DNA from: Nitrospiraceae bacterium
GTDB taxonomy: Bacteria > Nitrospirota > Nitrospiria > Nitrospirales > Nitrospiraceae
Length of the DNA: 64,000 nucleotides
NCBI GenBank assembly: GCA_019637075.1
Contig: JAHBWI010000005.1
Coordinates: 186,001-250,000, forward strand
Direction of reading: 5' to 3'
Shown: positions 29,830 to 51,006 of the stretch, one piece after another
Numbering within the stretch: position 1 is the stretch's first letter
Layout of the letters: every line of letters starts with the position of its first letter
Program-made: the position numbers and the translations under genes
The notes under the pieces: generated by a model
Databases searched by the model: none
Told to the model about the DNA's origin: nothing
What the model saw: the letters and a program-made list of their open reading frames with translations, nothing else

Positions 29830-30705
29830 TTATTTTCCGACACGTCGGAGTTTCTCGATGATCGGCTTTTCCGCGTCGTACACGCGCTTCACCCCATCAC
29901 CCAGCGCCGCTTCCACCGCCCGGATATCCCGCACCATACGATGGAAACCCTGCGGTTCGACCGAAGCCGCCTGGTCGCTTCCCCACATCGCACGATCCAG
30001 CGTGATGTGGCGTTCCACGATGCAGGCTCCCAGCGCCACGGCGGCCACGGATGTTTGCAGACCGACTTCGTGCCCGGAATAGCCGATGGGATGATGAGGA
30101 AATTCCTTGATCAGCGTCCGGATGGTCAGGAGGTTCAGCTCCTCGGGCTTGCTGGGATAGGTGCTCGTACAATGGAGAAGAATCAGGTCGTCGGTGTCGA
30201 GGACCCGTACCGCATGCCGGATCTGCTCCATCGTGCTCATGCCGGTCGACAGAATAATCGGCCGCCCCGTCTTGTGATGGTGCCGCAACAAGTTGTCGTC
30301 GGTGAGAGAGGCGGAGGCAATCTTGTAACAAGGCGGGTCGAACTGCTCCATGAAATCCACCGAGGCTTCATCCCAACACGAGGCCAGCCAGAGCAACCCT
30401 TTCTCCCGGCAATGGCGATCGATCGCGGCATACTCCTCACGCCCGAATTCCAGGCCGCGCTTCAATTCACCGTTGGTTTTCCCGAACGGACTCTCGCGCG
30501 GGCGAGCCAGTTCTTCAGCGGTATAGACCACATCCACCGTCCGCTTTTGAAATTTGACGGCATCGGCCCCCGCCTCCTTTGACGCGTCGATCAGCTGCTT
30601 GGCCAGCTCCAGATTTCCATTGTGGTTGATGCCGATCTCGGCGATGACGAAGGCGGGATGTCCGTCTCCGACTTCCCGATTTCCGATGCGAACCGTGCGA
30701 CCCAT
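29830..30705 (-). CDS. neuB: NeuB-family synthase lacking the SAF domain
   Basis: 291 residues with AAAGGAGG upstream. The NeuB TIM barrel is complete: FVIAEIGINHNGNLELAKQL, ADAVKFQKRT, YKIASASLTDDNL, IILSTGMSTMEQI, LLHCTSTYPSKPEELN, IGYSGHEVGLQ and IVERHITLDRAMWGSDQ. It condenses PEP with a hexosamine or mannose-type sugar. The protein stops just after the barrel, so the C-terminal antifreeze-like SAF domain present in the second NeuB (44351) and in most family members is missing. That domain helps hold the substrate across the dimer, so the acceptor is probably different here. Confidence 0.92.
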   Translation of the reverse strand: MGRTVRIGNREVGDGHPAFVIAEIGINHNGNLELAKQLIDASKEAGADAVKFQKRTVDVVYTAEELARPRESPFGKTNGELKRGLEFGREEYAAIDRHCREKGLLWLASCWDEASVDFMEQFDPPCYKIASASLTDDNLLRHHHKTGRPIILSTGMSTMEQIRHAVRVLDTDDLILLHCTSTYPSKPEELNLLTIRTLIKEFPHHPIGYSGHEVGLQTSVAAVALGACIVERHITLDRAMWGSDQAASVEPQGFHRMVRDIRAVEAALGDGVKRVYDAEKPIIEKLRRVGK

Positions 30706-30733: not shown

Positions 30734-32158
30734 CTATTCAGTAGTTTCGCAGCTCCCCCTCAGGGAGATTTCGACCGCATTGGAGCCTCGGAACGGCCAA
30801 TAGGATGCCAGCGGGCGATTCGCCACCGTGATGCCGCGATCGCGGAACAATGCGGCTACCCCGGCAAGATCTTTCGCATCAAATCGTTTCGATGCGCGGT
30901 TCCGCATACCTGTTCGATTCCATCCCTGCTTCAGCCACACTTTAGCGATGTAGTAAACCAACACATAACCGAATCTGAAGAGCCATTTCAAATCTTTTCG
31001 AGGCACGGATCTCTGGCCCTGTAGGGCCTTCGCAATATATTCGGCGACGCGAACGGCGGCTTGGCCGTCATTGCGATAGGTCCATTCGGCAACGGTCTCT
31101 GCCGCAGCCTCCCTTGCGCGGGCCAGTTGGCGTTCCATTTCAGGATCCGACGTTCCGCCGAGGATCGTCCGCAGGAGGGCGACGAGGGATTCGCGGCTCC
31201 CGGCCTTGAGGCTGCAGCGGGATGCCACCGCCACCTCCAGCAGCGGGTGCTGAAACAGCTCCAACGAAATCACCGGCTTCCTCCAGAGCGCCGCCTCGAA
31301 CGCGACCGAGGAGTTCAACTGAACGACCGCCGCACAGCCTTTCAGCCATGAGGCCACCACGCCCTCCTGCGTAAGCGTCAGGTTGGAGATCCCGCGTAGC
31401 GGTTCGTAGGTCGAGGCATTCTCGAAAGGATGCGGCCGCAACACGAACGGCACGGAGGGAAACGTCGCGCAGAGCCAACGCACGAGGTCCAGGAATCCGG
31501 TCAATGCGCGATCAGCGGCCGCCCGGGCCTCTTCTAACTCGTTCTGGGCCAGCCCCATCGTCTCCATCAGGTTGCGGATCTCCTGCTCCGGCGTGGCAAA
31601 CCGAGGGTTGTTCAAAGGAAAGCTACTCGTCAACAACACGTAGGGCCGGTGCTCGAATGGGGGATCGGGAACCAAGGCCCTCCAGTCCTCATGGTACACG
31701 TCAAACCGGGGACATCCCGCCAGATGCAGAACAGTTCCAGGACTGCCCAAGTCCTTTTGAAACGCCGCATACTGCCGGTTCCCCCAGAGAAAGTAGTCGT
31801 CGATCCGCGCTTTGACTCCGCTCTCCTTTACGATATTCAGCAGCTCACGGTACTCACAGCGGAGCACCCCTCCCTCGGTATCCAGGACCCCGACGCGGAT
31901 CCCCATCCCACGGTAGCGAGCGATGGCCGGCGCATTGGCTTTGCGGGCGTAGTTCACTAGGACGTAGTTCGGACACCACTTGATCACATGCTGCTGCTGA
32001 TCGTACATCGGGACGAGCAGGACTCGAAACCCGCGCAGGGCAAGCTGCGAGGCCAGCAGCCCGAGCCCGAGCAAGTCGCGTCCCGGATTGTCCAGCACCA
32101 GACAGGCAACTTTTCGGTCGGTTCCCGCTGGTTCGGCGTTCAGCATGGGCTCCGTCAT
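30734..32158 (-). CDS. Surface carbohydrate biosynthesis protein (capsule-transferase-like)
   Basis: 474 residues from the ATG at 32158, which overlaps the flippase stop (ATGA). A frame that continues to 32524 lies over the flippase gene and is a shadow. Features are ACLVLDNPGRDLLGLGLLA at the start, the Rossmann-like LVPMYDQQQHVIKW, YVLLTSSFPLNNPR, FVLRPHPFENASTYEPL and the sugar-nucleotide site-like CAAVVQLNSSVAFEAALWRK. This matches the pattern of proteins annotated as surface carbohydrate biosynthesis, related to KpsS/CDP-glycerol-type transferases. It probably attaches a charged sugar, perhaps the product of the NeuB just downstream. The function is inferred from pattern and place. Confidence 0.78.
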   Translation of the reverse strand: MTEPMLNAEPAGTDRKVACLVLDNPGRDLLGLGLLASQLALRGFRVLLVPMYDQQQHVIKWCPNYVLVNYARKANAPAIARYRGMGIRVGVLDTEGGVLRCEYRELLNIVKESGVKARIDDYFLWGNRQYAAFQKDLGSPGTVLHLAGCPRFDVYHEDWRALVPDPPFEHRPYVLLTSSFPLNNPRFATPEQEIRNLMETMGLAQNELEEARAAADRALTGFLDLVRWLCATFPSVPFVLRPHPFENASTYEPLRGISNLTLTQEGVVASWLKGCAAVVQLNSSVAFEAALWRKPVISLELFQHPLLEVAVASRCSLKAGSRESLVALLRTILGGTSDPEMERQLARAREAAAETVAEWTYRNDGQAAVRVAEYIAKALQGQRSVPRKDLKWLFRFGYVLVYYIAKVWLKQGWNRTGMRNRASKRFDAKDLAGVAALFRDRGITVANRPLASYWPFRGSNAVEISLRGSCETTE

Positions 32159-33654
32159 TCGGGCACCCGCGCGGCGGTTCCTCGCCGCAAGACGGCAGCC
32201 AGAGGCCCATCCTGCATCCGCAACAGCTGGAAGGCCAAGAGGGCAAATGCCATCAACATGAGGCAATTTTCGATGACCCGCCCCTGCGACCATCGGACTC
32301 CCAATAACGCGACCAACCCGCCGACAAGCATGAGGCCCCACATACGCCCCCATGGCACGATCACGGAATAGGCGCGCTGTCCGGCCAGAAGATACAAGCC
32401 CGCCAGTGCTCCGTAGCACACGGTAAGCGCCCAGGCCGCGCCCCAGGCGCCATAGGTTTTGGTCAACAAGACGTTGGCCGTCACCACGATGCACACATGG
32501 ACGAGTTGAATCATCGGTTGCCATTTTGTCTTTTCGCCGACCTGCACCGCGGCACTGCCCAGCGGCGCCAACCCGAAGAGGAAATAGCCGAAGACAAATA
32601 CCGGCACGAGCGGCGCGGCCTCAGCGTAGCGGGATTCGAACCCGAACCAAGTCAGCACCGGAATCGCAAATAACAACACGCCGAGCGCGGCGAGCATCAA
32701 CACCGCTACATAGACCGCGATGGCGCTGCCGAGGAGACTGCGCGCGTCGGCGCGCTCTCCCGCGACCCGCACATAGAACGGAAACCAGGCCGGCTTGACG
32801 GAATCGTAAAACAGTTTCACGGCCTGACCGACTTGATTCGCCAGCGAATACAGACCGATCTCGTGGAGCGTCGTCCATTTATCGAGAAAGAACCGGTCTG
32901 CGCGGTTCGCCACGGCTTCGAGCACCGCCGAGGGCACCAAAGGCAGCGCAAACCGCAGGGCTTGAGCCAGCGGCGGCCAGGACAGGGACCAGCTCGTCTG
33001 CGAGAGAAACCAGACGGTCGTGCAGACAGACACCACCGCCGCACCGACCAGCTGCACTCGGACGATCCCCGGCACACCCCATCCCCCGTAGATCGCGACC
33101 AAGGTGAGACCGACCGTGAAGAGGGCCGTCGCGAGTGAAACCGCCAGCAGCAGCTTGCTCCGCTCCATCACGCGAAGCAGGAACATCGGGCATAATCCGA
33201 CGCCCGACCAAAACGCCCACCAAATCCCCAGACGCAAGTTGGGTTCGAACGACACACGCGTCACCATCGATTCGAGCAGCGGCCGTCCGAATTGATCGAG
33301 CAGGACGGTGCCGACCAGCAGCGACCCGACGCAGACCAGCCACACCGAACCTAAGGCCGCGGCGGCATGCCCCTGCCGATGCCACTCATGATAATAGCGA
33401 AGGATCGCGTGCGGCAGGCCAAGCGACAGGACGGCGGGCAACACGAACGGTAGCAGAGAGATCAATGCCAATTCGCCGAACTCGTCCGGAGTGAGCTGCG
33501 AGACATAGGCCGGCAGGAGGAGGACCGCACTGGCGCGTTGGAGAAGGTTGCCGAGGCCGTAGATGCCGACGTGCCCCGCCAGCCTACGTAGGGCTTGGGC
33601 AGAACTCAAACCGCTGTAACCGGGATGTCCGGCGGTTGAGTCGGGAATCCCCAT
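32155..33654 (-). CDS. Polysaccharide flippase (Wzx-like, MOP superfamily)
   Basis: 499 residues with about 12-14 membrane helices. It starts at the ATG 33654 whose A is the last base of the upstream TGA. The N-terminal region (HVGIYGLGNLLQRASAVLLLP, YVSQLTPDEFGELALISLLP) is the typical beginning of Wzx/RfbX flippases. Further helices include VLLFAIPVLTWFGF, PVFVFGYFLFGLAPLG and LMLVGGLVALLGV. These proteins move lipid-linked glycan units across the inner membrane. It is the only exporter-type gene in the 26-gene unit; there is no ABC transporter in the window. Confidence 0.9.
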   Translation of the reverse strand: MGIPDSTAGHPGYSGLSSAQALRRLAGHVGIYGLGNLLQRASAVLLLPAYVSQLTPDEFGELALISLLPFVLPAVLSLGLPHAILRYYHEWHRQGHAAAALGSVWLVCVGSLLVGTVLLDQFGRPLLESMVTRVSFEPNLRLGIWWAFWSGVGLCPMFLLRVMERSKLLLAVSLATALFTVGLTLVAIYGGWGVPGIVRVQLVGAAVVSVCTTVWFLSQTSWSLSWPPLAQALRFALPLVPSAVLEAVANRADRFFLDKWTTLHEIGLYSLANQVGQAVKLFYDSVKPAWFPFYVRVAGERADARSLLGSAIAVYVAVLMLAALGVLLFAIPVLTWFGFESRYAEAAPLVPVFVFGYFLFGLAPLGSAAVQVGEKTKWQPMIQLVHVCIVVTANVLLTKTYGAWGAAWALTVCYGALAGLYLLAGQRAYSVIVPWGRMWGLMLVGGLVALLGVRWSQGRVIENCLMLMAFALLAFQLLRMQDGPLAAVLRRGTAARVPE

Positions 33655-34544
33655 CAAATCCCATTCAGCAGGTAACTCTGCGTGGGACGAGTATGCTCAA
33701 TGGCCATAGTGGAGCCGTCGCGCGACCGCAGCACCGTGATCCCCGCCAACGTATAATTCTGCACGCGCGTCACCGTTGTTCCCAACCCGCCGCTCGGGCG
33801 AAGAAACTCACGGACGGTTACTCCAAATAGATCTTCCAGCGACCGCTCGATCCCGCCGAATGCCGGCACGGGCCCGAAGTCGGCGTCCAGAAACCGTCCG
33901 TCCGGCCGGTAGAGCCGCACGGTGGGATGGACGGTATCGGAATACTGGGGATTCGACGAATGATTGATCAGCATGAGCCCGGTGAGGTGAGTATCCGAGA
34001 CCAACACTTTGGGATTCACGCTCATGAACCCGACATGTTTCTTCTTGGAGAAATCGTTGAGCGTCCGCGCGAAGGCTCCCGTCCGGTAGTTGGTGAAAAA
34101 CCGGTCTCCTTCGTAACTCATCGAAAAAATATTGATATCGGACAGGGCATGCGCATGCTCGCCGATGTCCATGACCATCATGAACATGCCGTCCTCCACG
34201 GGAAGGCCTCGTGCTTCGCAGAGCTCATTCACATTGATCTCGAAGGTCTGCCCCGCCGACCAGGCACCGATCTCGCCGAAGTCGCAGAGAAATCGACCGT
34301 CGCGCGCCGTCAAGCCTCCTCGGACCGTCATCCGCTGAGCCCGACCGATCAACAACGGGATGAACATCCCCACATCCGGCATACGACCCTGCCGAATCCC
34401 GGCAAGGGTTTGCTTCGCGGCTTTTTTCCAGCTGAACTGACAGAAGTCCAGCCGCACGGCCTGACTCACCCTATTGGTACAGCCGCGAAAGATCGGAAAC
34501 CCAAACCGCGGCTCGTGCTCTTTCCAATACGACGTAGGAAACAT
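33654..34544 (-). CDS. Unrecognised protein with internal repeat, partner of the 34551 gene
   Basis: 296 residues, no signal peptide or membrane helix. I do not recognise a family. Two segments resemble each other: residues 80-95 (ARDGRFLCDFGEIGAW) and 213-229 (RPDGRFLDADFGPVPAF). Each is preceded by an alternating beta-like stretch (MTVRGGL, PTVRLY) and followed by a hydrophobic L-x-x-L segment (INVNELCEARG; SLEDLFGVTV). The same plan occurs twice in the protein encoded just upstream. The predicted make-up is mostly beta. It lies 6 bases after that gene and its stop overlaps the flippase start, in a block that also contains a sulfotransferase. A role in glycan modification or control is only a guess. 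Confidence 0.75.
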   Translation of the reverse strand: MFPTSYWKEHEPRFGFPIFRGCTNRVSQAVRLDFCQFSWKKAAKQTLAGIRQGRMPDVGMFIPLLIGRAQRMTVRGGLTARDGRFLCDFGEIGAWSAGQTFEINVNELCEARGLPVEDGMFMMVMDIGEHAHALSDINIFSMSYEGDRFFTNYRTGAFARTLNDFSKKKHVGFMSVNPKVLVSDTHLTGLMLINHSSNPQYSDTVHPTVRLYRPDGRFLDADFGPVPAFGGIERSLEDLFGVTVREFLRPSGGLGTTVTRVQNYTLAGITVLRSRDGSTMAIEHTRPTQSYLLNGI

Positions 34545-34550
34545 TGTCTT

Positions 34551-35300
34551 TCAGAAGTGATGAATGTTGAAGTCGCCGCCGACGTGTCGGGACAACGTCA
34601 GCGGCTGGTTGATGTGCCGACCCGACACGTGAACCGAACCAGGCTGCCCCTTGAGCTGTGCCCGCAAGTCGGGGACCAACTCAGCCAAGGGCAACACCAC
34701 CGAGGCCCGGGGCCGCAACGTGAACGCCTTCCGATAAATCGACGTCCCGTCGCCTCGCCGGATGTCGACGTGGAACGTGCCGTCGCATTGGGCCGGATCT
34801 TCTCCGAAATAACTGTTCTGCACGATCACCGAAACGTCCACCGAAGAAGAGGACGGGATGACCGCCGGTTCGTATTGGATCCGGTGATCGTCCTCATACC
34901 GCATGCGGTCGGTTTCGTGTGTGAAATCCGCATGCCCCCGGGTATCCCAGTAGGTGGCGAAGAACAAAGTGCCCACGTACTTTTGATGCCGTAAGGGAGG
35001 CATTGCATGAGGAACCAATTGCACTCCGATGCTTCCCTGAAAACGCGCCACGAGATCGGACAGCCGGCATTGCCATTGTCCCAACGAAGCGAGCTGGTGC
35101 GTCGCCCGTGCGACTTCCTCCCCTTGTTCGTCGAAGAGATAGACATGGGCGGTCGATTCCACGGGGCGGTCCTCGGTCAGAAGACTGTAATAATTGAAGA
35201 GCGAGATCCTGGTGTGGAAGGAGTCGTCCTCCCGTCCCCAGATCAGCGTCGGGACCGTCCGGTCGAGCACGTAGGGATGGGTGTTTAACTGGGCGCTCAT
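34551..35300 (-). CDS. Unrecognised protein with repeated beta-type modules
   Basis: 249 residues, cytosolic by sequence. No known family comes to mind. Two modules are visible: residues 50-97 (TAHVYLFDEQGEEVAR ... CRLSDLVARF) and 173-227 (FHVDIRRGDGTSIYRKAF ... LPLAELVPDL). Both follow a plan of hydrophobic strand, D/E-x-G turn, strand, then an L-x-x-L segment. This plan is also present twice in the protein encoded downstream. The C-terminus is His-rich (RHINQPLTLSRHVGGDFNIHHF, here split by a few other residues in the module). The start ATG overlaps the sulfotransferase stop (ATGA), so the three genes are coupled. Confidence 0.75.
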   Translation of the reverse strand: MSAQLNTHPYVLDRTVPTLIWGREDDSFHTRISLFNYYSLLTEDRPVESTAHVYLFDEQGEEVARATHQLASLGQWQCRLSDLVARFQGSIGVQLVPHAMPPLRHQKYVGTLFFATYWDTRGHADFTHETDRMRYEDDHRIQYEPAVIPSSSSVDVSVIVQNSYFGEDPAQCDGTFHVDIRRGDGTSIYRKAFTLRPRASVVLPLAELVPDLRAQLKGQPGSVHVSGRHINQPLTLSRHVGGDFNIHHF

Positions 35301-36415
35301 AACGTCAACGCGGCCCTGTGAAACATGTTAGTGGTAAGCCGCGCGTCGGCGCCGCTCTGCCGGTTCAACAACGTCCTGGCAATCCACAAGCGGCGGGTCA
35401 CATAGTTCCACTGTAGCGCCTGTACGAGCCGCTTGGCCAGGGGCATGGTGGCGGAGGGTCTTCCCACCCGCGTTTCACGCGCAAAGGGCTGCGCCAAGGC
35501 CAGGAGACGAGCGGCGCCGTCCGTCTTCCGGGTGAGGGGATATTCCCGTTCCAGCCGATAGGCCTCGATGATCCACTCCAGTATAGTCACTTCCTGCTCA
35601 GACAGCGCTTCCTTCCAGCGTCCGATCGGACGCTGGTCGAACGGCTTCAACCGGTCACGCAAATCCGACGCCAACGAATTACCCCGCCACAACTCACCGC
35701 CGTACGAGGGGATCAACAGTGCCTCGTGCCAGGCAAGTCCCAACCAGGCCGCAATTTCCCTGATGACCGGCTCGCCCAGCTGAATCATGTGCTCGTAATA
35801 CACCAACCGGTACTGCTGCGGATACTTCGCCACATTGGCGTAGGCACTTTCCAAACTCGCCAACAGGCGGTCGCGAATGAAATTGGTGGCGTGGTAGCCG
35901 ATGCCTTGATACTCAGGCTCGTCCATCATGCGTTTCAGCGCCAGATAATTGTCGCGGGGATCACGCAGCACGTGCAGAATCTTCGCCCGAGGAAAATTAT
36001 CAAGGATCCGCGCGACCGAATCGTAATGGCGCGGAGTCTTTTCGATGACATGCGTGACGCGTTCGTGCGCTTCCTCCGGCAGACTGTCCTGCGCGAGCGA
36101 AGCAAATATGGACCACAGGCGTCGCGGCAACGCGGGATCGGTCGGATCACTATCCAGTGCGGCCAGACGCCGGTCGAATGTCTCCGGCGTCACGCCTGCA
36201 TGAATAGTATGCTGCGACATCAGTTTGCCGTAGAACGTACGAAGTCGTTCCGCCAACACCTCCCGGCCGCTCACCCCTCTCAACGGCAAGTGGAACACCG
36301 CCGACTCAAGCAGCGTGACCACGTTCGGATGGGAATCGAACAGGGACAAGAGAAACGTCGTGCCTGACTTCGGCGTCCCGACGATGAACACCGGCTGAAC
36401 CGATTCTGAATTCAT
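35297..36415 (-). CDS. Sulfotransferase family protein
   Basis: 372 residues from the ATG at 36415 (GAGGG upstream); the frame to 36502 overlaps the aminotransferase end and is not supported. The PAPS 5'-phosphosulfate loop is FIVGTPKSGTTFLLSLFDSH (residues about 9-28). The second PAPS motif is KILHVLRDPRDNYLALKRMM. It would transfer sulfate from PAPS to a hydroxyl of a carbohydrate. PAPS could come from CysC encoded at 50470. The position between legionaminic genes and the flippase suggests sulfation of the surface glycan in the cytoplasm before export. Confidence 0.9.
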   Translation of the reverse strand: MNSESVQPVFIVGTPKSGTTFLLSLFDSHPNVVTLLESAVFHLPLRGVSGREVLAERLRTFYGKLMSQHTIHAGVTPETFDRRLAALDSDPTDPALPRRLWSIFASLAQDSLPEEAHERVTHVIEKTPRHYDSVARILDNFPRAKILHVLRDPRDNYLALKRMMDEPEYQGIGYHATNFIRDRLLASLESAYANVAKYPQQYRLVYYEHMIQLGEPVIREIAAWLGLAWHEALLIPSYGGELWRGNSLASDLRDRLKPFDQRPIGRWKEALSEQEVTILEWIIEAYRLEREYPLTRKTDGAARLLALAQPFARETRVGRPSATMPLAKRLVQALQWNYVTRRLWIARTLLNRQSGADARLTTNMFHRAALTL

Positions 36416-36449
36416 ACCGCTGCCCTCGCTCCGGATGCGTGCGCTGCGT

Positions 36450-37655
36450 TCATACGCGTCCTCCTGCCCCGCACAACGCCTCTCTGAACGTCCGAATGAC
36501 ACGGGTTTGATCCTCCTCGCTCAGTCCCACCGAGGATGGGAGACTCAATGCGCGCTCGTACAGCCGGTCCGCCGTGTCACAGGCATAGGCGGGACAGTCA
36601 CGATGGGCGGGCGACCGATGCAGAGGCTGCCACAGCGGACGCGTTTGAATGCCGTGCCGTTGGCAAAAGGTCAGTACCTCGCGCCGGCTTCTTCCGGCGC
36701 CGACCCCCTCGACGAGTACCGAATAGAGCCACCACGCGCTCCGCGCCTTCGGGGATTCCTCCATCGCGCTCACACCGTCCAGGCCGGAAAATGCCTCGGT
36801 ATAGCGGGCGGCGATCCGGCGCTTGGCGTCGAGAAACGCCTGAATCCGCTCAAGCTGCGCACATCCGATGGCAGCCTGCACGTTCGTCAGCCGGTAATTG
36901 AATCCCACTTCGTGGTGGATGTATTCGACGGGATCGTCCTTGGCTTGGGTCGTCAGATACTTCGCCTTTCCGGCCCAGTCCTCGCGATCCGTGACGAGCA
37001 TACCGCCCCCGCCGGTAGTCAGCAGCTTGTTGCCGTTGAAACTGAAGCAGGCCGCATCGCCCCACTGGCCAACCGCCCGTCCTTCATAGGACGCCCCCAA
37101 GCTTTCCGTCGCGTCTTCGATCACCGGCACGTCATACTCGCGCGCGAGCGCACAAATGGTCTCGATGTCACAGGGATGCCCCAGGATGTGAACGGGAAGA
37201 ATCGCCCGCACCCGACGACCGGTCCGCTTGTTTCTCAGGTGCCCCTGACTCCGGTCGCACTCCGTCCGCAAGAACTCAGCCAACTTGTCGGCATCCATCT
37301 GCCAATAGCGAGGCTCCGCATCGATGAAAAGCGGCCACGCCCCCAAATAGCGCACCGCGTTGGCCGGGGCGATGAACGTCAGCGTCGACACCAGCACCTC
37401 ATCGTCCGGCTGAACCCCGGCAACTTTGAGCGCGACGTGCAATGCGGCGGTACCGCTGGAGGTTGCGACCCCATACGTGGTCCCCACGTACGACGCCACC
37501 GCCTGCTCGAACCGATCGACATAGGCGCCGACCGATGATACCCATCCGCTGTCCAAGCAGTCTTTGACATATTCCCACTCACGACCGCGAACTTCCGGTT
37601 CGGACAGCGGAATGAACGGCTGCGAGACGGTCGGCGGTTGGCGATCAGACGGCAT
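36450..37655 (-). CDS. legC: LegC-type sugar aminotransferase (DegT/DnrJ family)
   Basis: 401 residues from the ATG at 37655, overlapping the dehydratase gene by 11 bases. PLP-dependent aminotransferase that adds an amino group at C4 of the 4-keto-6-deoxy sugar nucleotide made by LegB. Seen are SSGTAALHVALKVAGV, PVIEDATESLGASYEGR, the Schiff-base Lys segment CFSFNGNKLLTTGGGGMLVT, and LTTQAKDDPVEYIHHEVG with NYRLTNVQAAIGCAQLE, which are characteristic of the LegC subgroup. The N-terminus PFIPLSEPEVRGREWEYVKD also fits. Confidence 0.92.
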   Translation of the reverse strand: MPSDRQPPTVSQPFIPLSEPEVRGREWEYVKDCLDSGWVSSVGAYVDRFEQAVASYVGTTYGVATSSGTAALHVALKVAGVQPDDEVLVSTLTFIAPANAVRYLGAWPLFIDAEPRYWQMDADKLAEFLRTECDRSQGHLRNKRTGRRVRAILPVHILGHPCDIETICALAREYDVPVIEDATESLGASYEGRAVGQWGDAACFSFNGNKLLTTGGGGMLVTDREDWAGKAKYLTTQAKDDPVEYIHHEVGFNYRLTNVQAAIGCAQLERIQAFLDAKRRIAARYTEAFSGLDGVSAMEESPKARSAWWLYSVLVEGVGAGRSRREVLTFCQRHGIQTRPLWQPLHRSPAHRDCPAYACDTADRLYERALSLPSSVGLSEEDQTRVIRTFREALCGAGGRV

Positions 37656-38628
37656 ACACACCTGGTCGATAGCGGTCGAGATGCCCCTGCATCCACTCGA
37701 TCGTCCGACGAAGCCCCTCTTCAAGCGTGACCGACGGAGTCCAACCCAACAGAGTCTGCGCCCGTCGGTTATCGGCCAGCAGTCGCTCCACCTCGCTGGT
37801 CGCAGGACGAAACCGCCGCTCGTCGGTCACCAATTCGATCGACCTCCCCACCAGGGATCCGATCAGCAGCGCCAAATCCCGAATCGCGATCTCCCGTCCG
37901 GAGCCTAGGTTCACGGTGTGCCCCACCGCGTCCGGCGCGACGGCGGCCCGTACGAATCCTTCGACGGTATCGGCCACGAAATTCAGGTCGCGCGTCGGAT
38001 CGAGGTTTCCCAGCCGAACCTGCGTGCCGGTCAAACACTGCGTGATGATCGTGGGAATCACGGCGCGAGCGGACTGCCTGGGGCCATAGGTATTGAAGGG
38101 GCGCACCGTCACGACCGGCACACCGAAAGACAGATGACAGGCTTCGGCAATCTTGTCGGCGGCGATCTTGCTCGCCGCATAGGGTGACTGCGCCTGCAGG
38201 GCATGGGTTTCGGGGATGGGCACCACGCGGGCCGTGCCGTAGACTTCGCTCGTGGAGGTATGCACGACGCGCCGTACCCCGTTGGCGCGCGCCGCCTGCA
38301 TCACATTCAAGGTTCCCTCGACGTTCGTTCTCACGAAGGATAGCGGCGCCTGATACGAATAGGGAATCGCGATCAAGGCGCCGAGATGAAACACCACGTC
38401 GCAGTCGCGCACCGCCTCGGCGACGAGATCGCGATCCGTGAGATCTCCCGCAAGCACTTCCATGTGCTGCGCGTGGGGAGACCGGTCGAGCCATCCCCAG
38501 GACCCGTCGGCCCGGTAATGCACCAAACAGCGGGTCTTGGCGCCGAGCTCCGTCAACCGCTCGCTTAAGTGGCTGCCGATGAACCCCCCGGCCCCCGTGA
38601 CCAGCACCCGCGTCCCAGACCAGTTCAT
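37645..38628 (-). CDS. legB: LegB-type NDP-GlcNAc 4,6-dehydratase
   Basis: 327 residues from the ATG at 38628, which overlaps the stop of the upstream nucleotidyltransferase gene (ATGA). Extended SDR with VLVTGAGGFIGSHLSERLTE, active-site TSTSEVYG and YAASKIAADK, and VRPFNTYGPRQSARAVIPT, typical for LegB/GDP- or UDP-sugar 4,6-dehydratases. In C. jejuni LegB acts on GDP-GlcNAc. The CBS-nucleotidyltransferase upstream suggests the same GDP-linked substrate here. Confidence 0.92.
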   Translation of the reverse strand: MNWSGTRVLVTGAGGFIGSHLSERLTELGAKTRCLVHYRADGSWGWLDRSPHAQHMEVLAGDLTDRDLVAEAVRDCDVVFHLGALIAIPYSYQAPLSFVRTNVEGTLNVMQAARANGVRRVVHTSTSEVYGTARVVPIPETHALQAQSPYAASKIAADKIAEACHLSFGVPVVTVRPFNTYGPRQSARAVIPTIITQCLTGTQVRLGNLDPTRDLNFVADTVEGFVRAAVAPDAVGHTVNLGSGREIAIRDLALLIGSLVGRSIELVTDERRFRPATSEVERLLADNRRAQTLLGWTPSVTLEEGLRRTIEWMQGHLDRYRPGVYAV

Positions 38629-39701
38629 TTGTCCTGTTGCCATTCTTTGATGAGTTCCTGTGCCTGCTCGTAATCCGCCGGCTGCCCGATGTCCAGCCAC
38701 CCTTCCCGGATCGGGAAACTTGCCACGCGGCGCCCCTCTCGGAGCAATTGCTGGATGAGATCCGTCATGTCCGTCCGCTCACCGGGCGCCAGCAGCCGGT
38801 ACACGCTCGGCTCGAGCAGGTAGATTCCGGCATTCACAAAGAAATTGAAAACCGGCTTTTCCGTCACCCCGCGCACCATGACGCCGTCGGACTCGATGAC
38901 GCCGAACGGCACCTGCACATCGTATTGGCGCACCGCCACGGTCAAGTCCGCCTGTTGAGCTCGATGGAACTGGAGCATCGCCTGAAAATTCACCTGGGTC
39001 AGAATATCCCCGTTGATGACCAGCGTCGTCTCGGTGGGAGCCTCGATGAGACCGAGGCAACCGGCGGTCCCCAGCGGGCGATCCTCCGTGACATACGATA
39101 AATCGACCCCGAACTCCCGTCCGTCTCCGAAATGGGATTCAATCTTCTCCCGCTGGTGGTGGGTGCTGACGTTGACGCGTTTGATGCCGGAATCGCGCAA
39201 GTGCGAGATGATGATCTCGAGCAGCGGCTTGTCCCCGACCGGCAGCATCGGTTTCGGAGTCTGCTCGGTGAGGGGGTAGAGCCTGGTGCCTTTTCCCCCC
39301 GCCATGATGACCGCCTGCAGCGGCAGGACCTGCCGAGGCAGGAACTCATCGCGTGTCACCAATCCGACCACCCGCTGCTCCTGGTCGAGAATCGGCAAAT
39401 GCAGAATGCTGTGCCGTTGGAGCAATTGGAGGTACCAATTGGGATCCTGGCCCAATGCCGCCGAAATCGGTTGCGAAAACACCGACCCGGCCTTTTGTTC
39501 GAGCAGGACTTCGACCGGATTGCCGAGGTCGATCCGTGTCAGCATGGCCCGGCGGAGGTCTCCGTCCGTCACGGTCCCGACCAACCGGTGCCGTTCGTCC
39601 ACGACCAAAACAATCCCCAGGCGGCTGCGATCCATCATCGCCGCCGTCTCGCCGACCGTTGCGGTCCGGGCAATACAGAAACTGTCCGTGTTCGTATTCA
39701 A
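38625..39701 (-). CDS. ptmE: CBS-domain sugar nucleotidyltransferase (PtmE-like)
   Basis: 358 residues from a TTG start; no ATG or GTG with a good site is available. Two CBS domains occupy residues about 1-120 (LGIVLVVDERHRLVGTVTDG, then ILHLPILDQEQRVVGLVTRD). The nucleotidyltransferase domain follows with AVIMAGGKGTRLYPLTEQTP, PKPMLPVGDKPLLE and LVINGDILTQVNF. C. jejuni PtmE with this make-up is a glucosamine-1-phosphate guanylyltransferase, giving the GDP-activated precursor for legionaminic acid. GDP specificity here is inferred from that relation. The CBS pair may bind adenine nucleotides to regulate flux. Confidence 0.88.
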   Translation of the reverse strand: MNTNTDSFCIARTATVGETAAMMDRSRLGIVLVVDERHRLVGTVTDGDLRRAMLTRIDLGNPVEVLLEQKAGSVFSQPISAALGQDPNWYLQLLQRHSILHLPILDQEQRVVGLVTRDEFLPRQVLPLQAVIMAGGKGTRLYPLTEQTPKPMLPVGDKPLLEIIISHLRDSGIKRVNVSTHHQREKIESHFGDGREFGVDLSYVTEDRPLGTAGCLGLIEAPTETTLVINGDILTQVNFQAMLQFHRAQQADLTVAVRQYDVQVPFGVIESDGVMVRGVTEKPVFNFFVNAGIYLLEPSVYRLLAPGERTDMTDLIQQLLREGRRVASFPIREGWLDIGQPADYEQAQELIKEWQQDK

Positions 39702-39735: not shown

Positions 39736-40944
39736 TCAGGTTAACGGATGCCGGAGCTGCCACTGATCCCCTTCCTTCTTCCACAAATGAGGCGAGCGGA
39801 ATTCGTCGCACAACTGCATGAACCGTTCGGGGGCAATCCCCAAATACTCCATGACTTCCTTGAAGTATTGGTTCGGGAACTCCCCGTCGAACCGTCGCAC
39901 CAACGCCACCCCTTCTTCCCTCGTGAGGTGACGGTTGCGGATCTCCTGTGACGCATCATACGTCGCCCGGCCGATCCCGAACTTGATGTAGGTCGTGTAG
40001 TAGTGAAAGCCGTCGATTTTGTCGTCGAGGCTGTTGTACTTGCTGTACGTCCCCTCAGTCCGCACCGGATTCGCTTCAAATCCCGTATGTTCGATCGCAT
40101 AGTAATAGCATTCCTGAGGCGTCCACTTCAGGTAGTAGCCCAGATAATGCACCTCGACCTTGCTCCGTTCGAGGTCCTTGTAATCCGCCGGAAGATAGGC
40201 CAACAGGTCGTTGAGACTCAGACCATGCCGCTCGATCAATTCGTCGATCGAGACCCCGCCCAAACTGACATCCGAGAGATTCTGCAGCGTGAAAAAGGAC
40301 TTGTCCCGCAGCGACTGCTGATTGTCCGCGATGGGATTCCCGTACTCAGCCTCGTTCTCGCCGTAAAACACGAGCGGGATCTCGTACCGAATCGCCATCT
40401 TCGGCGCCAGATTCTTTTGCCCGAGAATGAACGACTGGAACGGATGAAGCAGATTCTCGATCGCCAGTTTGGTCAGCAGCCGATGGGCTTTCCCGTTCGG
40501 CTTGAACGTCACGTTGTCGAATCCGCCGACTTCGATCCAGTTGCGAAAATTGCGCAGACCGATATCGGTGTAGAGGATCGGCGGCCACGTTACGGTCAAC
40601 GGATGCATCCCATACTTGTACTTCAGCACATGGGCGGCATACGCGCTGTCCTTTCCGCCACTGCCGGGCACCACGCAATCATAGTATCCGTCCTTTCGGC
40701 GGTATCGATCGAGCAAGCGTAGCAGCTCGTCTTCCCGCTGTTTCCAATCGATGGCTTCCTTGCGCTCCGCGAACCGGCAGGCGTCGCACACGCCCGCCTC
40801 GTCGAAATGCAGCGACCGGTGGCGATGGTTTTTCCCATGCTTGAATTCAACCGAGGAAGCTGGACGCTGATTCGACATCACGCATCGGGCGCAGTAACGG
40901 ACGGTTTCGGGTAGTCCATATTTCGCTTCAAGCTTTTCCTGCAC
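39736..40944 (-). CDS. N-acetyl sugar amidotransferase (WbpG/PseA type)
   Basis: 402 residues from the GTG at 40944 (AGGGAG six bases upstream); a TTG further out is weaker. It turns an acetamido group of a sugar into an acetamidino group, using ATP and ammonia. Visible are the zinc-type Cys pairs CARCVMSNQRP (residues 18-28) and CDACRFAERK, the PP-loop CVVPGSGGKDSAYAAHVLKY, and the family segment FYGENEAEYGNP. Its ammonia should come through HisH and HisF encoded directly upstream; it overlaps hisH by 17 bases. In P. aeruginosa WbpG works with such a pair, and PseA modifies pseudaminic acid in Campylobacter. Confidence 0.92.
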   Translation of the reverse strand: MQEKLEAKYGLPETVRYCARCVMSNQRPASSVEFKHGKNHRHRSLHFDEAGVCDACRFAERKEAIDWKQREDELLRLLDRYRRKDGYYDCVVPGSGGKDSAYAAHVLKYKYGMHPLTVTWPPILYTDIGLRNFRNWIEVGGFDNVTFKPNGKAHRLLTKLAIENLLHPFQSFILGQKNLAPKMAIRYEIPLVFYGENEAEYGNPIADNQQSLRDKSFFTLQNLSDVSLGGVSIDELIERHGLSLNDLLAYLPADYKDLERSKVEVHYLGYYLKWTPQECYYYAIEHTGFEANPVRTEGTYSKYNSLDDKIDGFHYYTTYIKFGIGRATYDASQEIRNRHLTREEGVALVRRFDGEFPNQYFKEVMEYLGIAPERFMQLCDEFRSPHLWKKEGDQWQLRHPLT

Positions 40945-41647
40945 GGTGTGCTCCCTGTTCAAGAGTCATCGCCTTGGCGGCGAAATTTCGATAGATGCGT
41001 AAGCCGGAAGGCCCGCTTCGTTCAGGATGAAACTGGCATCCGGTGACGTTGCCCTCGATAAGGGACGAACAAAACTCGAACGCGCCGTACCGCGTAACGG
41101 ATAGAACCTTGTTCCCTTGCTCCGGGCGACAATAGAACGAGTGGACGAAGTACATGTACTCTCCCGATGCCAGCGTCTGGAGCGCGGTCCCATCCCAGGC
41201 CGGCACCAACTCCCCGCCCGGGACGGCTCCCTGCGGCGGATGCACCGCTTCCCATCCGACGTGCGGGACCTTGGACACCAACTCCCGCTCCGCCTCCATC
41301 GGCAACTGAACGACATCCCCTCGAATAAGATCCAACCCACGGTGGCGCCCGAACTCCCGGCTCTCACTCATCAACAACTGCATCCCCAGGCAGATGCCCA
41401 GCAGCGGCGTGCCGTTTGCCGCAACATCACGTAAAACCGGGATCAAGTCAAGGGCGGCCAAATTGCGCATGGCCTCGCCGAACGCTCCCACGCCGGGAAG
41501 AATGACGCCGGATGCGTCGAGGATATCCTGCTTCTTGTTCGTCACTACGGCATCGACTCCGACGCTTTGGCAGGCACGCAACACGCTGAACAAGTTACCC
41601 ATCCCGTAGTCGACGATGACCACGCTCCCTGTCGACCGATCAGACAT
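40928..41647 (-). CDS. hisH: HisH-like glutamine amidotransferase of the sugar amidination system
   Basis: 239 residues from the ATG at 41647, overlapping hisF by 8 bases. Class I glutaminase: IVDYGMGNLFSVLRAC, ILPGVGAFGEAM, nucleophile Cys in LLGICLGMQLLMSES, and YFVHSFYC and FHPERSGPSGL with the His and Glu of the triad. In histidine synthesis HisH feeds ammonia to HisF. Here no other his gene is near and the pair is coupled to the WbpG-type enzyme, so it most likely supplies ammonia for sugar amidination. Confidence 0.92.
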   Translation of the reverse strand: MSDRSTGSVVIVDYGMGNLFSVLRACQSVGVDAVVTNKKQDILDASGVILPGVGAFGEAMRNLAALDLIPVLRDVAANGTPLLGICLGMQLLMSESREFGRHRGLDLIRGDVVQLPMEAERELVSKVPHVGWEAVHPPQGAVPGGELVPAWDGTALQTLASGEYMYFVHSFYCRPEQGNKVLSVTRYGAFEFCSSLIEGNVTGCQFHPERSGPSGLRIYRNFAAKAMTLEQGAHRAGKA

Positions 41648-42509
41648 GGGGCACCGACTCGCCGACAACGCGGCAGGGAATGTCGGCCTCGCGAAGCACC
41701 CGTTTCACGTCCTTCACGGATGCGCCCTCCACCTTGGAAAAGCCCCGAGCCTGCTTCAGAAACTCCACGTTTCCTTCCTCTCCCGCGCTGTATCCCGCGC
41801 CCGTTCGTTTCAGCAGATCATAGTGCAGCATCGACGCCAAACAGACCGCATCGGCCGCTCCTTCGACCACCACTTCCCGAATGTGTCCGAGGGTGCCGGC
41901 CCCCCCGCAGGCCACCACGGGAATGGTGACGGATCGTGCCACCTGGCGCGTCAATTCGAGGTCGAATCCCTTACCGGTGCCTTCGCGATCAATGGAGGTG
42001 AGCAGAATCTCGCCGGCTCCCAATTCTGCGGCTCGCCGGGCCCACTCCACGGCATCGACGCCCGTCCGCTCTCGGCCGTTGTCCGTATAGGCCTCATACC
42101 CTCCGGCCGGCGTGCGAATGGCTTCGATGGACACGACGACGGTCGAGGAGCCGAACTTCCTGGCCGCTTCCCGTACCAGTTCCGGGCGGGCGATCACGGC
42201 CGTGTTCAGCGAGACCTTATCGGCACCCGCCACCAGGACTTGCCGGATATCTTCGAGCGAACGCACCCCCCCTCCGACCGTCAACGGGATGAAAATGTCG
42301 TGCGCGGTGCGGCGAACGAAATCGATGAGGCTATTTCGCTGGTAGAGACTGGCCACGACATCCATGTACACCAGTTCGTCGATGCCTTCCCGATAGTAGG
42401 CTTGCGCGAAATGTTCCGGACTGCCGAGGACACGGAGTCCTTCCAGATGCACCCCTTTCACAAGATTGGGGCCCTTGATATCCAGCCGCGCGATGACCCT
42501 GACACTCAT
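41640..42509 (-). CDS. hisF: HisF-like cyclase subunit of the sugar amidination system
   Basis: 289 residues, about 30 more than a housekeeping HisF. The barrel motifs are present: RVIARLDIKGPNLVKGV, VYMDVVASL, IPLTVGGGVRSLEDI, GADKVSLNTA, EILLTSIDREGTGKGFDL, VVACGGAGTLGHI. The extra C-terminal part (GNVEFLKQARGFSKVEGASV) probably contacts the amidotransferase. As with HisF2 in P. aeruginosa, it should form the ammonia channel with HisH, not make imidazole glycerol phosphate. The ATG overlaps the stop of the NeuD-like gene (ATGA). Confidence 0.92.
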   Translation of the reverse strand: MSVRVIARLDIKGPNLVKGVHLEGLRVLGSPEHFAQAYYREGIDELVYMDVVASLYQRNSLIDFVRRTAHDIFIPLTVGGGVRSLEDIRQVLVAGADKVSLNTAVIARPELVREAARKFGSSTVVVSIEAIRTPAGGYEAYTDNGRERTGVDAVEWARRAAELGAGEILLTSIDREGTGKGFDLELTRQVARSVTIPVVACGGAGTLGHIREVVVEGAADAVCLASMLHYDLLKRTGAGYSAGEEGNVEFLKQARGFSKVEGASVKDVKRVLREADIPCRVVGESVPHV

Positions 42510-43168
42510 GACCGACTCCGCGACGATAAGGAACAGGCAGGCACGCCGGCGACCGTATCGCCCGCGACCACGTCTCTGATGACGACCGCCCCCGCCGCCA
42601 CCACGGCCCTGGCTCCGATGGTGATCCCTTCACGAACGGTCGCGCCGGCTCCGACATGAGCCGCCTCGCCGACACGGATGCCTCCCGCGAGCGTGGCACC
42701 GGACGCAAGGTGTACATGGTCGGCAACGACGCAGTCATGCTCCAGAATCACGCCGGAGTTGACAATCACGTTCGCACCGATCACGGCGCGAGGCCCGACG
42801 ATGGCACCCGCCAGGACCACGGTCCCGTCCCCCAGCACCGCCGAGGGCGAGACGACAGCCGAGGGATGCCGGAGGCTCCAGGGTTGAAGGCCGCTCGCGA
42901 GGGCCCGCTCGTAGACACGGATACGCGGTCCATTGTCACCCGTTCCCCCGAGGCCCACAAGAAAATGGGTCACGCCCTCCGACCTCAGCTTCGGCATCAG
43001 CTCATCGCCGCCGCGAATCGGAATGCCGAGCAACTCCTTGCCCCATCGAATCGGGTCCGACTCGAGCACGCAGACGATCTCGACCTCCCCTGCCGCCGAA
43101 GCCGCCTCGAGCAACACGGCGCCATGCCCACCGCCGCCCGCGATGACACCACGTGGTTTATCCGCCAT
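42506..43168 (-). CDS. NeuD/PglD-like sugar acetyltransferase
   Basis: 220 residues. The N-terminal Rossmann-like part has GVIAGGGGHGAVLLEAA, typical of PglD/NeuD enzymes. The C-terminal half is a left-handed beta-helix of hexapeptide repeats (AVVSPSAVLGDGTVV, GANVIVNSGVILEHDCVVAD, HLASGATLAGGIRVGE, HVGAGATVREGITIGA). It would use acetyl-CoA to acetylate the 4-amino group introduced by LegC (the LegH step) or decorate the finished nonulosonic acid. The first role fits the cassette because no other N-acetyltransferase is present. It overlaps LegG by 11 bases. Confidence 0.88.
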   Translation of the reverse strand: MADKPRGVIAGGGGHGAVLLEAASAAGEVEIVCVLESDPIRWGKELLGIPIRGGDELMPKLRSEGVTHFLVGLGGTGDNGPRIRVYERALASGLQPWSLRHPSAVVSPSAVLGDGTVVLAGAIVGPRAVIGANVIVNSGVILEHDCVVADHVHLASGATLAGGIRVGEAAHVGAGATVREGITIGARAVVAAGAVVIRDVVAGDTVAGVPACSLSSRSRS

Positions 43169-44354
43169 GCCGCGCAGCTCCCCAATCGGCCCCTTCCGGC
43201 GACGGCTGGTCGTGAAACACCTTCCTCAGCAGCGACGAGTCCAACGGCACATCCCTCAGCTTCGCGAGAATCCGTTCGGCTGCGCGACCGTCTCCGTACA
43301 GATTGGGGCGGCCCGCCAACCGCTGTCGCATCGCCGGCGTCAACGCCTGTTCCAGGCCACGTTCGATGTCCACCGCGTCATACCCGACGTCGATCACGTT
43401 CACATCCCTGAGACGGCCTTCCTGCCTGGTCCCAACGTTGATCACCGGCAGATGAAAGGTCATGGCCTCGATGATGCCGCTGGATGAATTACCCACCATA
43501 GCTCCCGCAACCGCCATCAAACTGAAATACGCCTGCGTCCCCAGGTTCTCGATGAGGCGGCTTCGCGGGACCCGCCGGACGAACGCCTCGATCTCCCGAC
43601 GGATGGAATAGCCGGCGGTATCCGTATTGGGAGCGGTGAATATGATGGGACGATCCACCGTCGCCAACGCCTTGCACAGTTGCTCCGCCTGCCGGGCCGC
43701 GGATTCGTACTCGAGTGTCGTCGGATGCATGGTCACAAGCACCGGAGCGGGATCGAGCGGCAGTCCGACCAAGTTCTCAAGGGCCTGCCGCGACAGCAAC
43801 GGAACGGTTGCAACATTGTCCAGGCCCAGCGCGCCGCTCACCGCGACCCGCCAGGGTGCTTCCCCCATTTGGACAACGCGCCGCGCATAGGCATCCGTCG
43901 CGGTAAAGTGCAGATGGCTCAACTTCGTGAGACTGTGGCGCAGCGCCTCATCGATCGCCCCCAGCGTGAGTTCGCCGCCATGGATATGGGCCAGCGGGAT
44001 CGTGAACGGAACCGCCGCCATGGCGGCGGCGTGCATTTCGAAACGGTCGCCCAACAGGACAAGCAGATCGGGGCGCCGGCGTGAAAAGACCTGCGCAAAT
44101 CCAATGGTGGCCAACCCCATGGCTTTGGCGATTCCGGCCGGCCGGTCGGATGCCAATGCCGCCTCCACCCGCTCGGCGACGCGAAATCCGTCACGCTCAA
44201 TAAGGGTGACGGTCTCGCCGAACGTCGGAGACAGATGGGCGCCGGTCGCATACAGGAGCAGCTCCAGCGAGGGGTCCGCGGCGATGGCGCGCAGCAGCGG
44301 CACGTAGATGCCGTAATCGGCCCGACTGCCCGTGACGACTCCGATCGCCCTCAT
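43158..44354 (-). CDS. legG: Hydrolysing NDP-GlcNAc 2-epimerase (NeuC/LegG type)
   Basis: 398 residues. GT-B-fold epimerase with VVTGSRADYGIYVPLLRAI, LLVLLGDRFEMHAAAM, LAHIHGGELTLGAIDEALRH, LVTMHPTTLEYES, FTAPNTDTAGYSI, MVGNSSSGIIEAMTFHLPV and NVGTRQEGRLRDVNVIDV. It inverts C2 and releases the nucleotide, giving the free 2,4-diacetamido mannose-type sugar used by LegI. Its ATG overlaps the LegI stop codon (ATGA). Confidence 0.93.
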   Translation of the reverse strand: MRAIGVVTGSRADYGIYVPLLRAIAADPSLELLLYATGAHLSPTFGETVTLIERDGFRVAERVEAALASDRPAGIAKAMGLATIGFAQVFSRRRPDLLVLLGDRFEMHAAAMAAVPFTIPLAHIHGGELTLGAIDEALRHSLTKLSHLHFTATDAYARRVVQMGEAPWRVAVSGALGLDNVATVPLLSRQALENLVGLPLDPAPVLVTMHPTTLEYESAARQAEQLCKALATVDRPIIFTAPNTDTAGYSIRREIEAFVRRVPRSRLIENLGTQAYFSLMAVAGAMVGNSSSGIIEAMTFHLPVINVGTRQEGRLRDVNVIDVGYDAVDIERGLEQALTPAMRQRLAGRPNLYGDGRAAERILAKLRDVPLDSSLLRKVFHDQPSPEGADWGAARHGG

Positions 44355-45403
44355 GCCAGGACGTCCTTAGTGATCGGAGTACCGGCCGCAATGGCCTTGC
44401 GCACCCGCCGGCCGATCAAACGCTCGCGCATGTCCGGGGGAAGCCCCGTGCCCGGCCGTCTGATCGCCAGCATATCCGCAGTAAGTAGGCTGCCAGAAGT
44501 AATGTCCCGCGCTGCGACGACGCTCTTCCTCGCAACCGCGGCGATCTCCGCCTCCGCGGGAGCCGGCCTCTTCGCGCCGTGTCCCAACGCCTGTTCGATG
44601 AGACGAATACCCTTCACCATCTGCGTAAGTTCCCCCGGTTCGAGCGAGGCTCGATGGTCGGGACCCGGCAGCGTCCGGTCGATCGTGATGTGCTTCTCGA
44701 TCATGGCGGCCCCGAGCGCGACGGCGGCTAGAGCCACTTCGATCCCCTGCGTATGGTCGGAAAACCCGACCGGATAGGAGAAGGTTCGTCTCATCGTCTC
44801 CATCGCCCGCAAATTCACGTCACGGGGGTCCGTCGGATAGTTACTGACACAATGCAGCAGGACGATCTGCCGATTGCCCGTCTGTTCCACAGCCTGGACC
44901 GCCGCGGACACTTCGTCCATCGTGGCCATTCCCGTGGACAGGATCACGGGCCGTCCCATCCTCGCAACATGGGCAAGAAACGGCACATTCGTCAAATCGC
45001 CCGAAGAGATTTTGAAGGCCGGCAGACCCAATGACTGCAGATCATCCGCGCTGAGCTCATCGAACGGCGTCGAGAGAAAGAGAATATGCCGCAACCCGCA
45101 CGCCGCCTGAAGTTCCGCATGGGCTTCGTCAGGCAATTCCAGGCGACGCAGCAGCTCCAATTGCGACGATTCCCCGCCCGTCGCCTCCCGCTGATACCGT
45201 GCCGTCGGGGCGCCGGCGGTCACGAGACGCTCGGCCCGAAAGGTCTGGAACTTGACGGCATCCACGCCGGCTTCGGCGGCGATGTCGATGAGACGTTTCG
45301 CCATATCCAAGTCGCCGTTGTGATTGACCCCGGCCTCGGCAATCACGAAACAAGGCTGTCCCGAACCGATCGAGCGGCCGGCGATTTCTACGGTGGTTAC
45401 CAC
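44351..45403 (-). CDS. legI: Legionaminic acid synthase-type NeuB (LegI)
   Basis: 350 residues from the GTG at 45403, nine bases after GGAGG; an ATG at 45412 touches that site directly and is less likely. The long frame to 45841 lies over the SDR gene. It condenses PEP with a 2,4-diacetamido-tetradeoxy mannose. Visible are FVIAEAGVNHNGDLDMAKRL, VDAVKFQTFRAERL, FKISSGDLTNVPFL, VILSTGMATMDEV, LLHCVSNYPTDPRDVN, and GFSDHTQGIEVALAAVALGA. The C-terminal SAF domain (RKSVVAARDITSGSLLTADM...IAAGTPITKD) is complete, in contrast with the NeuB at 29830. Confidence 0.93.
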   Translation of the reverse strand: MVTTVEIAGRSIGSGQPCFVIAEAGVNHNGDLDMAKRLIDIAAEAGVDAVKFQTFRAERLVTAGAPTARYQREATGGESSQLELLRRLELPDEAHAELQAACGLRHILFLSTPFDELSADDLQSLGLPAFKISSGDLTNVPFLAHVARMGRPVILSTGMATMDEVSAAVQAVEQTGNRQIVLLHCVSNYPTDPRDVNLRAMETMRRTFSYPVGFSDHTQGIEVALAAVALGAAMIEKHITIDRTLPGPDHRASLEPGELTQMVKGIRLIEQALGHGAKRPAPAEAEIAAVARKSVVAARDITSGSLLTADMLAIRRPGTGLPPDMRERLIGRRVRKAIAAGTPITKDVLA

Positions 45404-46200
45404 GCCGTCCATCCTCCGTCGACGACCAAATTCTGTCCCGTCACGTACGAAGATAGATCGCTGACCAAATAAGCCACCGCCCCTTTCATGTCTTCTTCCG
45501 TGGCCATCCGCCCGAGCGGTGTCCGAGCGTGATAGCGCTCGACGAACGCCTCTGCCTGATGCCGCCATACCCCGCCCGGCGAGAGGGCATTGACGCGGAT
45601 GTTCGGAGCGCACACGGTCGACAGGTACCGCATCAATTGCAGGAGTCCCCCCTTTGAGACGCCATAGGCCGCAGGGTTCCCCATGGCGGTTCCCTCGTAC
45701 AGCCTGGTATCGGGGCCCACCAGCCCGTAAATCGACGACACCAACAATACGCACCCCTTGCCCGAGGCCGCCAGCGACGGCTGAGCCTCCTGCACGATGG
45801 CGAAGGCTGCGGTGACATTCACCCGCATCACGGCATCCCACGGCTCATGGGACTGTTGTTCGAAGGGAACGGCCCACCCGGTCAAGCCGCTGGTTCCCAC
45901 ATAGGCTGCGGCATGAACGACGATGTCCAATCCCCCCAACCGCCCGATGACATCTTGCACCATGCGTCGCGTCGCGGACACATCGTTGAGATCGCATCCG
46001 AAAAACGCCGTTCGCCCTGTGCTTAACGCGGAGAGTTCCGTCGCCCGCCGTTCACAGGTTGCTGCCTCGCGGTCGCACAACGCGACGGTGGCACCGAGTT
46101 CCAACAACGTTTCCGTGATCGCCAGCCCGATATGTCCGGCCGCGCCGGTCACGAGCGCCCTCCGGCCTGTCAGGCTGCTCAATTCGCCGATCGACTTCAT
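45397..46200 (-). CDS. ptmA: SDR family oxidoreductase (PtmA-like)
   Basis: 267 residues. Cofactor loop ALVTGAAGHIGLAITETL, HAAAYVG, catalytic Ser in LLVSSIYGLVG, an insertion PDTRLYEGTAMGNP, then YGVSK; C-terminus SYVTGQNLVVDGGW. Related to C. jejuni PtmA, which belongs to the legionaminic acid gene set and is proposed to take part in making the amino sugar precursor. Overlaps by 4 bases with legF and by 7 with legI, so it is embedded in the pathway operon. The exact reaction is not established. Confidence 0.88.
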   Translation of the reverse strand: MKSIGELSSLTGRRALVTGAAGHIGLAITETLLELGATVALCDREAATCERRATELSALSTGRTAFFGCDLNDVSATRRMVQDVIGRLGGLDIVVHAAAYVGTSGLTGWAVPFEQQSHEPWDAVMRVNVTAAFAIVQEAQPSLAASGKGCVLLVSSIYGLVGPDTRLYEGTAMGNPAAYGVSKGGLLQLMRYLSTVCAPNIRVNALSPGGVWRHQAEAFVERYHARTPLGRMATEEDMKGAVAYLVSDLSSYVTGQNLVVDGGWTAW

Positions 46201-50469: not shown

Positions 50470-51006
50470 CTATGCAAACTTCTGCACCGCCTGAAGAATC
50501 AGGCCGACCGACTCGGCGGGCGATTCAATGCTGGTATTCACCACCACCTCCGCGCTGGTCGGCTCCTCATAGGGATCGGAAACCCCCGTGAACTGCTGAA
50601 TCTCTCCACGCAAAGCCTTGGCATACATGCCTTTGACATCGCGCCGGATACATTCTTCGACCGCGCAACGAACCCACACTTCGATGAAGGCCCCCGGGCC
50701 TCCGACCTTCTCGATCATGGCCCGTACCTCGTTCCGGCTCTCCCGATAGGGAGAGACGGCCGCGACGATCGGGGTCACGCCATGTTTCGTCAGCACCTGA
50801 CAGACCCATCCGATACGCAGGACGTTCGTGTCGCGATCCGATCGGGAGAAACCAAGGCCCTTGGAGAGGTGGGTACGCACCACATCACCGTCCAGAACTT
50901 CCAGGCGCTGATGTCCGCGTTCGAGTAAGTGGCGAAACAGATGGTTGGCAAGTGTGGTCTTTCCGGCACAGGGCAATCCGGTCAACCAGATGGTCATGGG
51001 CTTCAT
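50470..51006 (-). CDS. cysC: Adenylylsulfate kinase
   Basis: 178 residues. It phosphorylates APS to PAPS. P-loop WLTGLPCAGKTTLANHLF (residues about 7-24), EVLDGDVVRTHLSKGLGFSR, DRDTNVLRIGWVCQVL, SPYRESRNEVR and VKGMYAKALRGEIQQFTGV are all typical. No ATP sulfurylase gene is in the window. Because it lies inside a glycan island that also holds a sulfotransferase (35297), a dedicated role in glycan sulfation is likely. A good promoter is seen about 115 bases upstream. Confidence 0.94.
   Translation of the reverse strand: MKPMTIWLTGLPCAGKTTLANHLFRHLLERGHQRLEVLDGDVVRTHLSKGLGFSRSDRDTNVLRIGWVCQVLTKHGVTPIVAAVSPYRESRNEVRAMIEKVGGPGAFIEVWVRCAVEECIRRDVKGMYAKALRGEIQQFTGVSDPYEEPTSAEVVVNTSIESPAESVGLILQAVQKFA

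Follow-up and report, generated by a model that had tools for sequence, protein, structure and literature searches.

O-antigen and capsule clusters often hold genes that nobody can name. Two such genes, here called P1 and P2, lie side by side in the window, the 64,000-nucleotide stretch of a Nitrospiraceae genome analyzed here (contig JAHBWI010000005.1, positions 186,001 to 250,000). Are they genuine genes, do their products share a repeated module, and which step of surface glycan assembly might they serve?

P1 and P2 are tightly packed genes

P1 (34551..35300, minus strand, 249 aa) and P2 (33654..34544, minus strand, 296 aa) are packed closely between a sulfotransferase gene on one side and the gene for a Wzx-type flippase on the other, all on the minus strand: the P1 start codon overlaps the sulfotransferase stop codon in an ATGA, P1 and P2 are separated by six bases, and the end of P2 is a possible start point for the flippase. 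Coordinates, lengths and neighbors had been given correctly by the initial annotation of this DNA.

The GC3 values of P1 and P2 (0.74 and 0.72) are similar to those of their neighbors, and their codon log-odds were 0.15 and 0.20, against 0.04 for a 355-aa ORF on the opposite strand (33927-34994), which was unlike the neighbors and was rejected as coding. P1 and P2, which have neighbor-like coding statistics and homologues elsewhere (see below), are real genes. By a simple hydropathy measure (Kyte-Doolittle 19-mer maximum of 0.91 for P1 and 0.79 for P2) neither product contains a signal peptide or a membrane helix, as had been annotated.

The surrounding cluster is of a nonulosonic-acid type

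The upstream partner of the pair is the sulfotransferase (35297..36502, minus strand; Pfam PF13469), the ORF start of which is uncertain. The downstream partner is the flippase (32155..33657, minus strand; PF13440/PF01943), followed by a glycosyltransferase-like surface carbohydrate biosynthesis protein of family TIGR04396 (30734..32524, minus strand), whose ORF start is probably placed too far upstream. A LegC family aminotransferase (36450..37724, minus strand) and the genes for a WbuX amidotransferase, HisH-like, HisF-like and PglD-like proteins, NeuC and NeuB (together 39736..45841, minus strand) account for nonulosonic acid synthesis and amidination. Scores exceeded the curated cut-offs for LegC (482.9 vs 420), NeuC (427.6 vs 235.9), NeuB (451.5 vs 399.65) and WbuX (373.4 vs 203.2). 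The window also encodes a PseF-like cytidylyltransferase with a KdsC-like phosphatase domain, a Wzy_C protein and heptosyltransferases.

From the established roles of these families we take the cluster to be an O-antigen-like one for a nonulosonic acid of the legionaminic type, probably amidinated; the gene families suggest that its sugar is probably an amidinated legionaminic-type one. NeuB, the PseF-like cytidylyltransferase, NeuC, LegC and the HisF/HisH-like proteins, together with a flippase and a polymerase/ligase-like gene, are common to the window and to the amidinated-legionaminic Wzx/Wzy clusters of Legionella pneumophila; P1, P2, the sulfotransferase, an APS kinase and the TIGR04396 protein are additions of the window. 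In the available part of PMC3694923, HisF and HisH genes are listed for a Legionella O-antigen cluster, and no equivalent of P1 or P2 was identified there.

The pair matches no described family and is rare within its phylum

Pfam searches up to E=10 gave no match for P1, P2 or either of their homologues. NCBIfam and PHROGs yielded nothing over cut-off (best E 0.2-0.3), NCBIfam produced nothing of note for the homologues either, and nothing notable was found among PDB sequences, either for P1 and P2 or for profiles that included the homologues. The earlier statement that the two proteins belong to no recognizable family is borne out by these searches. Literature searches returned nothing on the pair.

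A search for P2 in 270 genomes of the class identified one homologue, in genome G460. Profile searches of the class and of 396 genomes of the phylum found no third locus, and the pair is rare within this phylum; weak phylum matches (E about 0.005) were dropped as chance, the inspected ones lying in or against unrelated genes and one of them containing stops. With single sequences as queries, no relative was detected in genome_contigs, viral contigs, plasmids or phages, a weak absence, as pattern scans match exact peptides only. No relative was found by profile scans of viral contigs, by searches using the G460 homologues as queries, or in the sulfotransferase neighborhoods of 20 regions of the family.

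The pair and its neighbors recur in a second genome

G460 belongs to the same family and to another genus. Its P2 homologue (L077:1477-2388) is 34% identical to P2 over residues 4-290 (E 7.7e-47) and adjoins a P1 homologue (L078:6972-7736; 24-26% identity and E 4e-10 against the ORFs of the window). The G460 pair lies inside a LegC/NeuB/NeuC/WbuX/HisF/HisH nonulosonic-acid cluster.

The gene order in G460 is sulfotransferase, flippase, P2, P1 and TIGR04396 glycosyltransferase; in the window it is sulfotransferase, P1, P2, flippase and TIGR04396. The flippase, P2 and P1 are adjacent and on one strand in locus L078 as well, but run in the reverse order there, so that the set stays together despite the changed arrangement. 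Identity between the window and L078 is 29% for the flippases and 34% for the TIGR04396 proteins. A TIGR04396 member, which is a neighbor of P1 and P2 and not a relative, is located beside the pair or one gene away in both loci. Among 60 sampled genomes of the family, TIGR04396 occurred in one, that of the window; G460, which was outside that sample, has both TIGR04396 and the pair. This co-occurrence rests on two loci from one bacterial family.

The sulfotransferases of the two loci have only short motifs in common and, judged by sequence, are not orthologous; because of this, the pair is more closely tied to the flippase and to TIGR04396 than to sulfation as such. The initial annotation had coupled the pair to both neighbors and had proposed looking for it beside sulfotransferases or flippases in other genomes: both partners do accompany it in G460, but a specific tie to sulfation was not upheld.

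A C-terminal module is common to P1 and P2

One module had been described as occurring twice in each protein. A single-sequence comparison of P1 with P2 gave no significant match. When profiles of two sequences each were compared over the whole proteins (hhalign), the probability was 51.7% and E=1.5e-4 for this single comparison, the aligned region covering columns 102-245 of the P1 profile and 142-283 of the P2 profile. The N- and C-terminal halves were then compared with one another and the scores tested against 100 column shuffles per pairing. None of the 100 shuffles scored as high for P1C-P2C or for P2N-P2C, 4 of 100 did so for each of P1N-P1C, P1N-P2N and P1C-P2N, and 37 of 100 for P1N-P2C. 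A two-row MAFFT alignment of P1 and P2 was out of register and was left unused.

Since no shuffle equaled the P1C-P2C match, the profiles identify a C-terminal module common to both proteins. A duplication within P2 is likely from the match of its halves, and a duplication within P1 is marginal, suggested by a marginal score and by the same strand order in a low-confidence model. The proposed plan is partly right: it fits the common C-terminal module, probably the two halves of P2, and marginally those of P1.

P1 module 1 (34911..35219, minus strand; about residues 28-130) was delimited from the strand order in the low-confidence model and from the alignment with the homologue; it terminates in GHADFTHE, of which H123, D125, H128 and E129 are kept in the homologue. 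P1 module 2 (34554..34847, minus strand; about residues 152-249) matches P2 module 2 and terminates in H..GDFNIHH, which is also kept. P2 module 1 (34080..34337, minus strand; about residues 70-155) contains the first DGRFL (34275-34301), and P2 module 2 (33675..34007, minus strand; about residues 180-290) contains LINHSS.P.Y, the second DGRFL (33873-33902) and I.H.RP.

DGRFL occurs exactly at P2 residues 82 and 215, and an exact repeated 5-mer was found in 2.4% of P2 shuffles. At the two places the homologue reads RKGHYIGQ and SPQEYLEEKFG, keeping only G83 and the second FG. P2 does contain the annotated DGRFL...DFG repeat, but its exact letters are not kept in the homologue.

AlphaFold models had a mean pLDDT of 42.9 for P1 and 31.8 for P2. 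In the low-confidence P1 model both halves consist of strands, a short helix and then three strands; residues 171-220 of module 2 form the better-modelled part (pLDDT 63-75). The module 2 model superposed weakly on Ig-like beta-sandwich accessory domains found in GH2 enzymes (65 residues at 2.4 A, Z 5.2). P1 has neither sequence similarity to these domains nor a catalytic barrel, and a likeness at Z about 5 is common. The best VIA Z was 6.1, on this P1 model. Foldseek matches of the same model (TM 0.13-0.23) were given no weight.

Possible roles of the pair

We tentatively favor the reading that P1 and P2 are a co-inherited cytoplasmic pair, each built of two related beta-sandwich-like modules, acting as non-catalytic glycan-binding subunits that help to assemble a surface glycan of the Wzx/Wzy type. 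On this view the shared module would mediate binding between P1 and P2, which together would keep the undecaprenyl-linked repeat unit on the inner side of the membrane until it had been completed by the TIGR04396 transferase (and the sulfotransferase) and could be exported by the flippase. The pair is placed at the cytoplasmic stage because of its packing, its lack of a leader or membrane segment and its co-inheritance with the flippase and TIGR04396. For this reading we count the presence of the pair and its partners, in reversed order, in a second genome, the co-occurrence with TIGR04396, the shared module, the hydropathy, the tight packing and the weak Ig-like likeness. Against it we count the poor models and the base of two loci from a single family, and a Z near 5 may merely reflect a common arrangement. 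In either genome P1-P2 is probably a dedicated part of the machinery for an unusual surface sugar of the legionaminic-acid type. That the pair stays with the flippase through a change of gene order suggests that a step of glycan assembly is still missing from the picture, which can be put to the test now that there are two homologous loci.

A close second, given the polar motifs kept in the middle of P2 and where the P1 modules end, is that P1 and P2 are the two subunits of a single enzyme acting on the sugar or on the lipid-linked unit, which it might modify by acyl or formyl transfer, or as a lyase or hydrolase. GH.D..HE and H..GDF.IHH of P1 and RTG.FAR.LN and NHSS of P2 would be its putative active-site motifs. 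Blocks of identity surround these motifs, although the alignments are only 26-35% identical overall, and many genes of the cluster encode enzymes that modify sugars; the His, Asp and Glu kept at the P1 module ends could equally mark an active site. Of the 14 histidines of P1, 7 are identical, against 26% for all residues (p=0.04, histidine being one of about 20 residue types tested). Neither protein resembles any enzyme family or PDB sequence, however, and from two sequences per family catalytic and structural conservation cannot be told apart.

The proposed sulfation-accessory role, with P1 and P2 serving as specificity subunits for the neighboring sulfotransferase, is rather doubtful. The overlap of the sulfotransferase stop with the P1 start and the occurrence of a sulfotransferase in both loci speak for it, as does an APS kinase gene for PAPS supply in the same cluster (50470..51006, minus strand; over the TIGR00455 and Pfam cut-offs), which makes a sulfated glycan plausible. 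Yet P1 and P2 are orthologous between the loci while the sulfotransferases are not, in L078 the flippase separates the sulfotransferase from the pair, and the pair was not found beside the sampled sulfotransferases of the family. A specific link to sulfation is not supported, and a function in sulfation only is the less likely one.

We consider it unlikely that P1 and P2 are the first members of a family of duplicated beta-sandwich proteins that work in pairs to check or hold the finished, sulfated nonulosonic-acid repeat unit before flipping; we know of no such quality-control step in Wzx/Wzy systems. Least probable is that the pair acts outside the cytoplasm after leaderless export or regulates chain length: beta-sandwich-like modules are frequent among surface proteins, but P1 and P2 have neither leader nor membrane segment, and chain-length proteins of the Wzz type are anchored in the membrane.

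Other genes of the two clusters

Two NeuB-type synthases are encoded in the window cluster: that at 44351-45841 has an additional N-terminal part of about 160 residues, and in that at 29830-30705 (minus strand) the C-terminal region of the NeuB model is missing. A LegC-like aminotransferase of the second locus (L078:14365-15858, minus strand) carries a fused N-terminal CBS-like region; in the window the CBS is found instead on a nucleotidyltransferase (38625-39701). The product of 55313-57250 (minus strand) is asparagine-synthase-like and resembles the XrtA/PEP-CTERM amidotransferase, scoring 582 bits where the cut-off is 817.

Each cluster contains one Capsule_synth protein (PF05159), at 23604-25538 (minus strand) in the window and at L078:4173-5552 (minus strand), the latter adjoining the TIGR04396 protein. 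Each also encodes a multi-pass membrane protein, of 847 aa at 21064-23607 (minus strand) in the window and of 849 aa at L078:1279-3828 (minus strand). These two proteins, which have no Pfam match, nor any NCBIfam match for that of the window, are homologous over 250 residues (31.6%) and are possibly a new polymerase or transferase.
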